Assembly (NCBI RefSeq): GCF_000686525.1
Contig: NZ_JMKT01000009.1
Location: forward strand, 310,001-374,000
Direction of reading: 5' to 3'
DNA: 64,000 nucleotides
Origin: Desulfonatronovibrio hydrogenovorans DSM 9292
GTDB taxonomy: Bacteria > Desulfobacterota > Desulfovibrionia > Desulfovibrionales > Desulfonatronovibrionaceae
The position numbers and the translations under genes are program-made. Under the pieces are notes generated by a model. That model ran no database searches. It was not told the origin of the DNA and worked only from the letters and a program-made list of their open reading frames with translations. Shown here one piece after another: positions 45,990 to 51,562 of this stretch (its first letter is position 1; every line of letters starts with the position of its first letter).

Positions 45990-46583
45990 TCAGGGCTGGT
46001 TTTCAGTGCTTGATTCCGAGCCTGCAAGTTCAGCATTGACCCTGTTCAGAAGCTGCTCATCATCAGGGTTGATGTCCAGGATACTCTTAAAATGGTCAAC
46101 AGCCCGCTGCTGGTCATCAAGATAGTATTTGAAGATGATGGCCAGGTTAAAATGGCTGCGATAGTTGCCGGGATCAATTTCCAGAAGGCTTTCAAAAAGT
46201 TCTACCGCCTCTGGATAACGTTCCAGCTGAAACAGGCTGAAACCGGCCTGATTAAGAGCCAGATCATTTTCCGGCTCCAAGGCCAGAATTCTGTTCCAGA
46301 AGGCATAGGCCCTGTCCCAGGCTTCCATAAGCATGAAAAAATGGGCCAGCTCCTTGAGGGCTTGGACATTTTCAGGATTCCGGTCCACTTCAGCCATGAG
46401 GGCTGTAATTTCCGCCATCATGGCCTGATCCTGACTCTGGGGTCCGGTCCTGGTTTCAACTATGATCGACGGGTCCTGGACCCTGGACCATAACGAAGTG
46501 GAAAATATGGCCACCAGGCTGAGAATGGCCATAAAAGCCACGGTTTTCTGCATTGCTGAGGGTGAAATAAAACTATTGCTCAT
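45990..46583 (-). CDS. TPR protein of the cytochrome c maturation locus (CcmI/CcmH-C-like)
   Basis: The 197-aa protein has one N-terminal membrane helix (TVAFMAILSLVAIFST) and about three TPR repeats (ALKELAHFFMLMEAWDRAYA, ALNQAGFSLFQLERYPEAVE, HFNLAIIFKYYLDDQQRAVD). TPR domains of CcmI hold the apocytochrome C-terminus in System I. The ATG at 46583 has GGAG 11 nt upstream and overlaps the ccmD end by 11 nt. An upstream start at 46619 would overlap more. It is the last gene of the ccm run. Confidence 0.8.
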   Translation of the reverse strand: MSNSFISPSAMQKTVAFMAILSLVAIFSTSLWSRVQDPSIIVETRTGPQSQDQAMMAEITALMAEVDRNPENVQALKELAHFFMLMEAWDRAYAFWNRILALEPENDLALNQAGFSLFQLERYPEAVELFESLLEIDPGNYRSHFNLAIIFKYYLDDQQRAVDHFKSILDINPDDEQLLNRVNAELAGSESSTENQP

Positions 46584-46704
46584 CCGAACTGATCTCCAGT
46601 TGCCTGACCTTGAGGTCAAGCCTTTTTTGTATGGTTGCCAGATAAAACAGATAACCGCTGATACCGATCCACACTGCGGCGTTACTGATGATTAGATAAG
46701 TCAT
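46573..46704 (-). CDS. ccmD: Cytochrome c maturation protein CcmD
   Basis: This 43-aa peptide has one membrane helix (YLIISNAAVWIGISGYLFYL) followed by a charged cytoplasmic tail, exactly the CcmD profile. GAGG lies 5 nt before ATG 46704; a longer frame start at 46812 would overlap ccmC by 100 nt. CcmD links CcmABC for release of holo-CcmE. It starts 8 nt after ccmC. Confidence 0.85.
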   Translation of the reverse strand: MTYLIISNAAVWIGISGYLFYLATIQKRLDLKVRQLEISSDEQ

Positions 46705-46712
46705 GATGTCCT

Positions 46713-47402
46713 CTAATAGATAAAAAGATTTCTGATCCGGTCCCTGATTTCCAGCTGTCTGAACCGATAAAGGATAAAGGTCAGGGTCAGCAAGCCCCAG
46801 GCAGTAATACACACCAGAACCGTGGTCATCATTTCCGGCTCAAGCCCTCCTCCCCTGGATCCAAATACAGCAGGATGGATGCTTCTCCACATCCTGGCCG
46901 AAAGAAAAACCAGAGGAACATTCAAAAATGCCACAATGCCCAGTACCGCTGACACAGCCCGCATTTTTCCAGGGTTATCCATGGATTTCCTGAGGACCAG
47001 GTAACCGGCATAAATGAACCACATAACCAGGGTGGTGGAAAGACGGGGATCCCAGGTCCACCATGTATTCCAGGCTGCCCTGGCCCAGATGGAACCTGTA
47101 ACCAGGGCCAGGGTTGCATACAGCAGTCCCAGCTCGGCCCCGGCCAGGGCCAGACGGTCAAAAGAAGGATTTCTGGTGATGAGAAAGCCTGCGCTGGCGC
47201 AAAATACCAGAAAAAAACAGAGCAGTCCCCACCAGGCCAGAGGCAGGTGAAAGTAGAATATTTTCTGGAGCAGCCCCATGGTCGCCTCAACCGGCGCATA
47301 CACCCAGATGAAATACTGAGCTCCAACCAGTCCCAGCCCGGCTGCCACCGCCAGGATGGGGATAATTTCCTGTGTCAGGGATCTGTTAAGCATGTAGTTC
47401 AA
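46713..47402 (-). CDS. ccmC: Heme-handling protein CcmC
   Basis: The 229-aa protein has six membrane segments and a WWD-type tryptophan-rich periplasmic motif, WARAAWNTWWTWDPRLS, that presents heme to CcmE. The TTG at 47400-47402 has GAGG 6 nt upstream; ATG 47393 is an alternative start. Confidence 0.94.
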   Translation of the reverse strand: MNYMLNRSLTQEIIPILAVAAGLGLVGAQYFIWVYAPVEATMGLLQKIFYFHLPLAWWGLLCFFLVFCASAGFLITRNPSFDRLALAGAELGLLYATLALVTGSIWARAAWNTWWTWDPRLSTTLVMWFIYAGYLVLRKSMDNPGKMRAVSAVLGIVAFLNVPLVFLSARMWRSIHPAVFGSRGGGLEPEMMTTVLVCITAWGLLTLTFILYRFRQLEIRDRIRNLFIY

Positions 47403-47500: not shown

Positions 47501-48172
47501 TCAATATTCACTGTACACAAAGGGAAAAAGGATCATGGCAGCTCCTGAAAACACTGCCCCGAACGCAAAGGCAATCCCAATCCATCCAGCCAGGTTTTCT
47601 TCTGCTCCTCCTCCCATGAAGCATGCTCCCAGCCTGATTCCGGCCAGAAGCAAAGGAATGAGCAAGGGAAAAATTACCACGCTCAAAAGAGAATCTCTGG
47701 ATGAATGCCCCTGGGAAACAGCACCCAGAAGAGAACCAACCGCAACCAGTCCCCAGTCCACCAGCAGGATGGTTCCGGCCAGGGACCAGATATCAGCCAG
47801 GTCCTGTCCCAGAAAAACCATTATGGCCGGCAAAAAAATCATTTGGGCCAGCACAAGCAGGACAAACCCCGAACAGGCCTTGCTCAACCAGATATACTGC
47901 AGGGGCAGGGGGGAAATCAAAAGCCCCACCCTGGCCTGATTGGCTTCTTCAAGGGAGTACAGGGTATTGAAAACAAGCACCAGGGCAAAACTGGTGGCCA
48001 GCCAGAAGATCGATGCTCCGGCCTGGGCTGGAACTTCCTCTCCCACCGGGGTGGACAGGCTGAAAACAAATACCAGGATCAGACCGAGCAGGACTGGCTG
48101 GATAATGCCGGTTCCGTCTGAAAAGATCAGTTTCAGATCCTTGCCGGTTATGCTCAGAAACCCCCTACTCAA
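47501..48172 (-). CDS. ccmB: Heme exporter permease CcmB
   Basis: The 223-aa protein has six hydrophobic segments and fits CcmB, which pairs with CcmA to drive release of heme-loaded CcmE. FVFVFSL, SLEEANQARVGLLISPL and LVDWGLVAVGSLLGA fall in the conserved areas. The start is TTG at 48170-48172, 8 nt inside the end of ccmA, so expression is probably translationally coupled. Confidence 0.9.
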   Translation of the reverse strand: MSRGFLSITGKDLKLIFSDGTGIIQPVLLGLILVFVFSLSTPVGEEVPAQAGASIFWLATSFALVLVFNTLYSLEEANQARVGLLISPLPLQYIWLSKACSGFVLLVLAQMIFLPAIMVFLGQDLADIWSLAGTILLVDWGLVAVGSLLGAVSQGHSSRDSLLSVVIFPLLIPLLLAGIRLGACFMGGGAEENLAGWIGIAFAFGAVFSGAAMILFPFVYSEY

Positions 48173-48851
48173 GGCCCGTACCCCGGTTCCAGGATCTGAA
48201 TTCCCTGGCTGATCCGTAAAATGCAGCTTGCTTATTGTCCAGATACAGGACCGTGTCAGTCAAATCCAGGTCTTCTTCCAGGGTATGGCTTATCCAGACC
48301 ACAGCTGCCTGATCCTGAACAGCCTGGGCGATCCTGGACCGTAAAAGCTCTCTGGAGCCGGTATCCAGGCCGGTCCCCGGCTCATCCAAAAGCATGAGTT
48401 CCGGGTCCAGCATAAGCACCCTGGCCAGACTCAGCCGTTGAGACATTCCTCTGGAAAACCTGCCGGCCTTTTCATGGACAAAGGCTTTAAGGCCAACACT
48501 GTCCAGAAGTTCAATGAGCTGATCCTGGGAAAGGGGGAGCGCATAGATCCCTGCCCAGAACCTGAGGTTGTCAAGGGCGGTCAGACCTGGATAAATAAAG
48601 GTGTTATGCCCGATAAATCCGACCTTTTCCCTGGCCACGCCATGCTTGACCAGCCCGCTTGATGGCTGCACCAATCCAGACATGATGCTCATGAGTGTGG
48701 TCTTGCCGGCTCCATTGGGTCCGGCCACAAGGGTCACACTCCCGGCCCTGACTTCAAGACTGACATTCTTGAATACCAGACGCTGATCAAAAAAATGAGT
48801 GACCCGGTCCAGTCTGAGCACCAGCTGATCTTTAAATGTATTGTCCTGCAT
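48165..48851 (-). CDS. ccmA: Heme ABC exporter ATP-binding protein CcmA
   Basis: The ABC ATPase (228 aa) has Walker A VAGPNGAGKTTLM, signature RFSRGMSQRLSLARVL and Walker B PELMLLDEPGTGLD. ATG 48851 starts at MQDNTFKDQL; a TTG at 48863 is possible. Its end overlaps the TTG start of ccmB. Together with CcmB it releases CcmE from CcmC. Confidence 0.92.
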   Translation of the reverse strand: MQDNTFKDQLVLRLDRVTHFFDQRLVFKNVSLEVRAGSVTLVAGPNGAGKTTLMSIMSGLVQPSSGLVKHGVAREKVGFIGHNTFIYPGLTALDNLRFWAGIYALPLSQDQLIELLDSVGLKAFVHEKAGRFSRGMSQRLSLARVLMLDPELMLLDEPGTGLDTGSRELLRSRIAQAVQDQAAVVWISHTLEEDLDLTDTVLYLDNKQAAFYGSAREFRSWNRGTGLE

Positions 48852-48993
48852 ATTACGGCACAATAGAGGCGCTCTCTATAGATTATCCCAGTCCATTCCC
48901 TGCTTCGCAACCCTGACCGGTATCTGGATGACCCGGAAGCCAGAAAGCAAAGACCCTGATTAAAGACCTGGTCCGTGGCCGGCCAGGAAATAA

Positions 48994-50904
48994 CTATTCA
49001 TCCATATCTTCAACTTTCCTGACCCTGACCCGGCCCATTATTGCAAACCCGGCCAGGCAGACCATGAAGCTGCCGATCCAGATCCAGTTGACCAGGGGGG
49101 TTATGTTCAACTTGACCGTGATGGTCTTTTCCTGATCAAAGGCCAGGATGGTTGAATAAATCTCATTACCCAGGGAAGGAATTACAGAAACTTCAGCATA
49201 GGGAGAGTCAAAATTTCTGTAGAGCTTTCGCTGGGGAGTCAGGGTTCCAAGCCTTTCATCGCCTTTGTAAACATTGATCCGGGCTTCGTATATGGCCAGT
49301 CCCGGGGTGATTATTTCTTCAAACTCCACATAATGAAAATCAAACTGGTTGAAACCTACCCTCTCCCCTTTGGGCATAACCATTTCCCTGCTGTCCTGGT
49401 ATGGTCCTGAAAAGGCCACCCCGAATACAATCATGGCAATTCCGAGATGCAAAAGATACACTCCCCACCCGACCCTTTTCTTTCTGACCTGGGGAGTCAA
49501 CAGGATATACAGCAGCATGGAAAACATTCCAGCCACACCACTGGCTGCTGCAGCCAGGGGCAGCAGAAGTCTTATGCCGCCTATCCACAAACCCACCATG
49601 GTGAATATAAAAACCAGACAGACAATGAAAAAACTGTTTTTATCCTTGATCCCGTCTCTCCATTTAAACCAGGGGCACACGCAGAGTATAACTGCCATAA
49701 AGGTAAAAAGAGGCAGGCAGACCCGGTTGTAGAAATCAGGCCCCAGGCCCAGGGGACTGGCTGTCCACAGCCTGGAAATAACCGGCCACATGGTGCCCAT
49801 GGCCACGATGATGGCCAGGGCCAGCAGCAGCCAGACTGTGACAATCATCATTCCCTGCTTGCTCCAGAAGCTGTCCACTGCACTCCTGTCTCCCTTTCCG
49901 GTCAGGGCCACAAAAAAGGTGAAGACCAGAGAGACCAGAATCAGAATCATCAGAGGCAAACCCACCCCGGTCCCTCCAAAGGTATGCAGGGAGTCAATCA
50001 CATTGCTCCTGACCAGGAAGGTGGCAAAGAAACAGGTAATCAGGCTCAAACAGATGAGGATGAGGTTGGAACGGTGCAGAGTGTTTCGCTGCTTGCCGAT
50101 CATGGCAGTATGCAGAAAAGCTGTACTCACCAGCCAGGGGATAAGAGACGCGTTTTCCACAGGATCCCAGGCCCAATAACCGCCCCATCCAAGTTCCATA
50201 TAGGCCCACCATCCACCCAGAAGAATGCCGCCGCCAGTCAGCATGATCCAGGCAAACAGCACCCAGTTCCGGGTCTGGAACAGCCAGGACCTTTGATCAC
50301 CTGTAACCCATCCAGCCAGGGCCAGACAGGCCGGGATGGTAAATCCGGCATAGCCTAAAAAGGTCATGGGCGGATGAAAGATCATGCCCACGTTCTGGAG
50401 CAGGGGATTGAGTCCGCGTCCGGACACCGGGGCCGGGTCCAGGATCAGAAAGGGATTGCTCGGCCCGGTGAGCATGAGCAGGAAAAAAGCCTGGACCATG
50501 AAAAAGAATCCCCAGAAATAGCCCTTGGTCTTTTCTGGCAGGCCCCTGTAAACCGGTGAATAGATCCAGACAAGCCCCATAACAGCCATGACCCAGAGCC
50601 AGAAGAGCATGGACCCGGCCTGTCCGGCCCAGAAAGCCGACAGCCTGTAGACCTGGGGAAGGAAATCATCTGTATATCGGTAGACATATGAAAAGGAATA
50701 ATCCTTCATCCACAAGGCCTGCAGCAGTATCAGGGAGGACAGGGTCAGGATCACAAAGCAGGCCACATGGCCCTTTTCCATCCAGGCCACACTCTTCATC
50801 CGGTCACTGCCGCCGGACCTTAAGGCCTCCCAGAAAAAAGCCAGGCCAAGAACAACGTAGATCAAAAGGGAAACAAGCAGAGTGAAGAAACCGATATATT
50901 GCAT
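48994..50904 (-). CDS. ccmF: Cytochrome c heme lyase CcmF
   Basis: The 636-aa polytopic protein has the WWD motif in AYMELGWGGYWAWDPVENAS, conserved periplasmic histidines, and a C-terminal soluble-domain segment (VAFSGPYQDSREMVMPKGER) characteristic of CcmF. It attaches heme to the apocytochrome CxxCH. It begins 196 nt after ccmE, a region where I see no gene. Confidence 0.95.
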   Translation of the reverse strand: MQYIGFFTLLVSLLIYVVLGLAFFWEALRSGGSDRMKSVAWMEKGHVACFVILTLSSLILLQALWMKDYSFSYVYRYTDDFLPQVYRLSAFWAGQAGSMLFWLWVMAVMGLVWIYSPVYRGLPEKTKGYFWGFFFMVQAFFLLMLTGPSNPFLILDPAPVSGRGLNPLLQNVGMIFHPPMTFLGYAGFTIPACLALAGWVTGDQRSWLFQTRNWVLFAWIMLTGGGILLGGWWAYMELGWGGYWAWDPVENASLIPWLVSTAFLHTAMIGKQRNTLHRSNLILICLSLITCFFATFLVRSNVIDSLHTFGGTGVGLPLMILILVSLVFTFFVALTGKGDRSAVDSFWSKQGMMIVTVWLLLALAIIVAMGTMWPVISRLWTASPLGLGPDFYNRVCLPLFTFMAVILCVCPWFKWRDGIKDKNSFFIVCLVFIFTMVGLWIGGIRLLLPLAAAASGVAGMFSMLLYILLTPQVRKKRVGWGVYLLHLGIAMIVFGVAFSGPYQDSREMVMPKGERVGFNQFDFHYVEFEEIITPGLAIYEARINVYKGDERLGTLTPQRKLYRNFDSPYAEVSVIPSLGNEIYSTILAFDQEKTITVKLNITPLVNWIWIGSFMVCLAGFAIMGRVRVRKVEDMDE

Positions 50905-51100: not shown

Positions 51101-51562
51101 TTAGTAGGCCCCGTTCTGATACGGAATCTGATCAGGATGTTCACCCCCGTAGGAATCCTGGGATTCGTACTTGGAAGCACACTTGGTCATAAGAGTCGAG
51201 GCCATGAACATATTCTGTTCAGGATTCATTCCGCCTTCCACAATGACCTCAGCTCCCGGAGCAAACAAATCCGGAATAGCACCGGTATACCGGACCCTGA
51301 TAACTTTGGACTGATCTTCCTTGTCCTGAAGGTTGAAAGTTACCCCCAGAGCATCCTGATCCCGCTCCAGGCCGGACCCGCCCACAGTACCGAACAGCCT
51401 GGCCCTTTCAAGGCTGGAGGTGTCCATGGCCAGGGCTTCGGACACCTCCAGAAAATAGGTGCTGTTCCTGGCAATACTGGTGGCCATCAGATAACCCACT
51501 CCGGAAAAAATAAGCACAAAGGCCACAACATACATGAGCCTGGAGTTCTTTTTACCGGACAT
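51101..51562 (-). CDS. ccmE: Periplasmic heme chaperone CcmE, CxxxY variant
   Basis: The 153-aa protein has one N-terminal anchor (LMYVVAFVLIFSGVGYLMA) and an OB-fold (LFGTVGGSGLERDQDA, VTFNLQDKEDQ, VRYTGAIPDLFAPGAEVIVEGG). The heme-binding site reads LMTKCASKYES with Cys128-x3-Tyr132 in place of the usual His-x3-Tyr. CxxxY-type CcmE has been described in Desulfovibrio, in Ccm systems lacking CcmG and CcmH. GGGGGA lies 6 nt before ATG 51562. It heads the ccm run. Confidence 0.93.
   Translation of the reverse strand: MSGKKNSRLMYVVAFVLIFSGVGYLMATSIARNSTYFLEVSEALAMDTSSLERARLFGTVGGSGLERDQDALGVTFNLQDKEDQSKVIRVRYTGAIPDLFAPGAEVIVEGGMNPEQNMFMASTLMTKCASKYESQDSYGGEHPDQIPYQNGAY

Follow-up and report, generated by a model that had tools for sequence, protein, structure and literature searches.

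Among described cytochrome c maturation systems, System I* of Desulfovibrio is the closest to the locus considered here and is reportedly due to Goddard et al. 2010. According to the available excerpt of PMC3601427, System I* is characterised by a CcmE of the cysteine type, usually with a CPSKY motif, and the Desulfovibrio operon needs neither CcmG nor CcmH to produce holocytochromes in E. coli. About one third of System I* bacteria contain CcmH, and CcmI enhances maturation without being absolutely required (PMC3601427, same excerpt). In Methanosarcina acetivorans the cysteine of the CXXXY motif of CcmE is needed for heme attachment, as stated in the portion of PMC9084895 consulted. D. vulgaris CcmE was reported to bind ferric heme noncovalently via C127, contrary to what work on D. 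desulfuricans had reported (PMC3884852, partial text). No paper on cytochrome c biogenesis in Desulfonatronovibrio was found in the literature searched.

The window, i.e. the whole stretch of 64,000 nucleotides from Desulfonatronovibrio hydrogenovorans DSM 9292 analysed here, harbored a putative operon of the order ccmE-F-A-B-C-D-TPR with every gene on the minus strand (Table 1). This is the arrangement that the initial annotation had read from the sequence, and it was confirmed by reading frames and by Pfam and NCBIfam profiles. CcmA, CcmB, CcmC, CcmD and CcmF were all present; Pfam scores exceeded the cut-off for CcmB, CcmC and CcmF, while several NCBIfam equivalog cut-offs were missed. CcmF aligned with the CcmF structure 6zmq at 1.3e-66, GWGGYWAWDPVENAS being common to both. 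The ccmA and ccmB genes overlapped (with the listed start), as did ccmD and the TPR gene, by 11 bases. A CNNM/CBS gene was found upstream of ccmE, and guaB, guaA and a TatA-like gene, named by reading the sequence, lay downstream of the TPR gene in the same orientation.

Table 1. Genes of the ccm locus, with positions in the window
Feature	Positions	Strand	Remarks
ccmE, C-x3-Y type heme chaperone	51101..51562	minus	153 aa; C128, Y132
ccmF, heme lyase	48994..50904	minus	PF16327 and PF01578
ccmA, ABC ATPase	48165..48863	minus	Pfam ABC ATPase; TIGR01189 123 bits, slightly below cut-off 131.6; operon position
ccmB, permease	47501..48172	minus	PF03379 65.8 bits (cut-off 24.9); TIGR01190 46 bits, below cut-off 156
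ccmC, heme handling, WTWD motif	46713..47402	minus	PF01578 94 bits; TIGR01191 130.8 bits, below cut-off 186
ccmD, small membrane protein	46573..46701	minus	TIGR04391 CcmD_alt_fam 50.4 bits, cut-off 24; ATG start inferred
CcmI-like TPR gene	45990..46583	minus	TPR Pfams, synteny, AlphaFold model; ATG start inferred

The ccmE product matched PF03100 (Pfam CcmE) with 85.9 bits (cut-off 24.6) and displayed the motif Cys128-Ala-Ser-Lys-Tyr132 (CASKY) in the context LMTKCASKYES. Its C128 occupied the place of the histidine of the His-x3-Tyr site of E. coli CcmE in the alignment, and it stood opposite the cysteine of D. vulgaris CcmE (2kct) and opposite the histidine of 1sr3, 8ce8 and 1j6q. The CxxxY motif is thus homologous to these sites and not a chance C...Y pair, and the replacement of the His-x3-Tyr heme site proposed in the initial annotation was borne out. 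C128, S130 and Y132 did not vary among the 18 CcmE sequences that were aligned out of the 29 from the same order. A genome-wide search of the host assembly (2.94 Mb, 98.87 % complete) gave a single CcmE match, that of the CxxxY type, and no second CcmE with HxxxY.

The absence of ccmG and ccmH, first noted for the locus, also held genome-wide, with the proviso that at 98.87 % completeness an unassembled gene is possible. PF03918 (CcmH) gave a sole match of 17.6 bits (cut-off 25), lying inside a gene that reads as GspF-like, and none at E ≤ 0.001. TIGR00385 (CcmG) gave four matches in the host genome, all below the cut-off (best 38 bits versus 123), the best two being a ResA/TlpA-like protein and a thioredoxin. 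The ResA/TlpA-like candidate, on contig C8 of the host, adjoining a gene that reads as metH, was rejected as CcmG, being unlinked to ccm and far below the CcmG cut-off, and was kept just as a possible reductant. DsbD-like and CcdA-like genes (both by Pfam) and a ResA/TlpA-like gene were present elsewhere in the host genome, and their products could supply reductant. An unlinked cluster (L021:1180-4241) appears to encode an ArsR-like regulator and a permease along with a thioredoxin and a CcdA-like protein (the latter two by Pfam), possibly for arsenic or mercury handling.

The lack of both CcmG and CcmH could be taken as the mark of a degenerate or non-functional System I remnant. We regard this as extremely improbable: the reading frames were intact here and the same order was found in 28 other loci, and the host encodes class III cytochromes while no ResB match was found in its genome. 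Four class III cytochrome matches were obtained, of which three exceeded the family cut-off (one of the three only when counted with in-frame neighbours), so that substrates for maturation exist. Outside the window, the host assembly also contained a 10,822-aa open frame, possibly a giant adhesin-like protein (around C14:63811-63885).

With the gene content, motif, absences and conservation in the order that were observed here, the operon is very probably a cytochrome c maturation system of the known System I* type. It combined a cysteine-type CcmE with CcmA, CcmB, CcmC, CcmD and CcmF and had neither a CcmG equivalent nor CcmH, the absence of CcmH not being universal in System I*. The initial annotation had named a natural system of such type from Desulfovibrio, and this corresponds to System I* in PMC3601427. 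The locus is therefore a further member of an already described system, an interpretation that holds but is known.

CcmA, CcmB, CcmC and CcmD of the host would load heme onto Cys128 of CcmE, with Tyr132 as a nearby ligand. CcmE would then pass heme to CcmF, and CcmF would join the heme to CXXCH motifs with no CcmH taking part. The TPR protein may keep apocytochromes ready for CcmF, the role proposed for CcmI, and general periplasmic reductants (DsbD-like and ResA/TlpA-like, encoded elsewhere) would keep the CXXCH cysteines reduced, thereby replacing CcmG. Covalent heme on the cysteine of CcmE is contested for the close homolog of D. vulgaris, which counts against an explanation of the System I* type here.

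The TPR protein displayed one N-terminal hydrophobic helix followed by a TPR solenoid and is presumably periplasmic. Its AlphaFold model had a mean pLDDT of 91, and many different TPR solenoids were found among the PDB matches listed; NrfG was not among these listed matches, which gives no sign of differing folds. The hydrophobic helix, an invariant arginine after it and the TPR repeats were common to the window protein and 34 relatives, the 34 being drawn from 60 TPR proteins whose genes lie behind ccmC in relatives' loci (start assigned for 53 of the 60). PF23914, the CcmH/CycH TPR profile, scored the window protein at 25.2 to 25.5 bits and thus missed its cut-off of 42, and matched 24 of 35 TPR proteins of relatives at E ≤ 0.001, a count made by E-value. 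A search of the host genome with this profile at E ≤ 0.01 hit 16 other places (best 33.2 bits), the TPR gene of the ccm locus not being among them. The protein thus appears CcmI-like by position and predicted build, formal CcmI membership not being reached by profile. The earlier suggestion that it may stand in for CcmI fits as to operon position, single hydrophobic helix and TPR fold, and found no counterpart in a PF23914 match over the cut-off; it is in any case not new, because PMC3601427 already covers CcmI in System I*.

A wider sample came from scanning a single genome for each species, which gave 158 relatives. The best 80 of the 158 were taken, 73 with Desulfovibrio-type names and seven with broad names such as Proteobacteria; the nearest were three Desulfonatronovibrio MAGs with 77-81 % CcmE identity. 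Among these 80, 79 displayed CxxxY and one (L170) CxxxH. No CcmH was found in the fetched stretches with a profile built here, some of these stretches stopping soon after ccmE. A TPR match was present in 64 of the 68 loci reaching ccmC, beginning within 900 bases after ccmC in 60 of the 64; the four others, Desulfonatronum included, had no TPR match, which, like the low PF23914 score of the window protein, counts against the System I* explanation. These four cysteine-type ccm loci (L153, L198, L170 and L204) represent a still smaller gene set.

The C-terminal end of CcmE carried a tail, HP[DE]x[IV]PY, that was found in eight of 144 loci, seemingly from five genomes of Desulfonatronovibrio, with three pairs of identical tails; this survey of motifs and tails counts some genomes twice. 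It might be supposed that, with the proline of the motif lost (CASKY), the conserved tail contributes a further ligand to the heme (His or Tyr) or allows docking on CcmF, easing release of cysteine-bound heme without CcmH or CcmG. Such a role seems very unlikely: six loci outside the genus displayed CASKY without the tail, and CPSKY relatives do without it. The CcmE of a Desulfonatronaceae MAG (UBA663; L170:226-855) displayed CPSRH, a histidine replacing the tyrosine of the heme motif, in this single MAG. The genus tail is an oddity, and together with this C-x3-H variant it belongs to the small curiosities.

In a search of the phylum set to at least 90 % completeness, 57 of 394 genomes gave a CcmE match (55 over the cut-off). 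It was detected in 11 of 18 family genomes; three of the seven without a match were at least 90 % complete (G001, G004 and G005, 94-99 %). The system is therefore not kept by every relative. The 64 loci that were read comprised the window, 53 loci of the phylum set and 10 further family loci, the phylum matches left out being G340 (partial, at a contig end) and G410 and G329 (below the cut-off). CxxxY was displayed by 62 of them and HxxxY by two. All 29 loci of the same order displayed CxxxY and the order E-F-A-B-C-TPR, with no CcmH in the locus.

CcmH was present in 34 of the 394 phylum genomes and, at E ≤ 0.001, in none of 19 same-order genomes (host included); for the 10 extra family genomes it was sought in the locus only. 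Among 54 phylum genomes, CxxxY occurred with CcmH in 29 and without it in 23 (19 from the order, the three of group f38 and one other from outside the order), and HxxxY once with and once without. The cysteine motif and the absence of CcmH are consequently separate traits in the phylum. In the 29 loci that included CcmH, ordered by frame start, the arrangement was F-H-A in 20, and in six H followed F with no A after it; in one, F and H were separated by a thioredoxin-like frame, and in two the CcmH frame preceded F.

In a midpoint-rooted CcmF tree of 63 rows, some with long branches, the 29 order sequences were set apart from the rest by a branch supported at 100/100, and two CcmH-less CcmF from f38 fell elsewhere, among CcmH-bearing rows. 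An extremely long CcmF branch was displayed by L103 (G278), a very divergent CcmC-CcmE-CcmF locus with CPSKY. CcmF of the order might have evolved features replacing the thiols of CcmH and so be a functionally distinct variant. L103 and L088, both on very long branches, were set aside for the comparison, as were L052 (CcmH-bearing, with His-type CcmE) and L053 (contig without a CcmF). Twenty-five CcmF positions, including C193 and C396, separated the order (conservation of 90 % or more across its 29 sequences) from 28 CcmH-bearing relatives (10 % or less), each of these positions holding in 63 to 72 of 72 CcmF from the best 80 of the 158 relatives. However, they were no more clustered along the protein than chance would give (as much clustering in 3469 of 10000 random draws), neither C193 nor C396 occurred in the two CcmH-less f38 CcmF, and none of the 25 was common to both. 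Moreover, the branch separating the order was long (1.19 changes per column), so that fixed differences are expected. Compensatory changes in CcmF were rejected as evidence, and a variant of this kind is judged very improbable. The same position test in CcmE, CcmC and CcmB gave a single position shared with f38, CcmC G181, which was judged too little.

Compared with known systems, the System I* operon of the window shares homologous CcmABCDEF with canonical System I of E. coli, which differs by its His-type CcmE and its need for CcmG and CcmH (PMC3601427, excerpt). It resembles the archaeal Ccm of M. acetivorans in its CXXXY CcmE and lack of CcmH, whereas the archaeal set has neither CcmD nor CcmI (PMC9084895, partial text) and the window encodes CcmD as well as a TPR protein. 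The window copy adds one member to System I*, whose usefulness lies in showing what components cytochrome c assembly can do without, and the survey separates the cysteine motif from the absence of CcmH in the phylum: CcmH was not found in the 19 order genomes searched or in the three of f38, which lies elsewhere in the CcmF tree, and was present in 29 other genomes with the cysteine motif. The greatest likeness is to System I* of Desulfovibrio, with its cysteine-type CcmE, no CcmG or CcmH and a CcmI that is present but dispensable (in Desulfovibrio; PMC3601427, excerpt). Desulfovibrio loci from the best 80 of the 158 relatives displayed the same gene order as here, and the window copy differs from that system in its CASKY motif, in place of the usual CPSKY, and in its genus-specific C-terminal CcmE tail.
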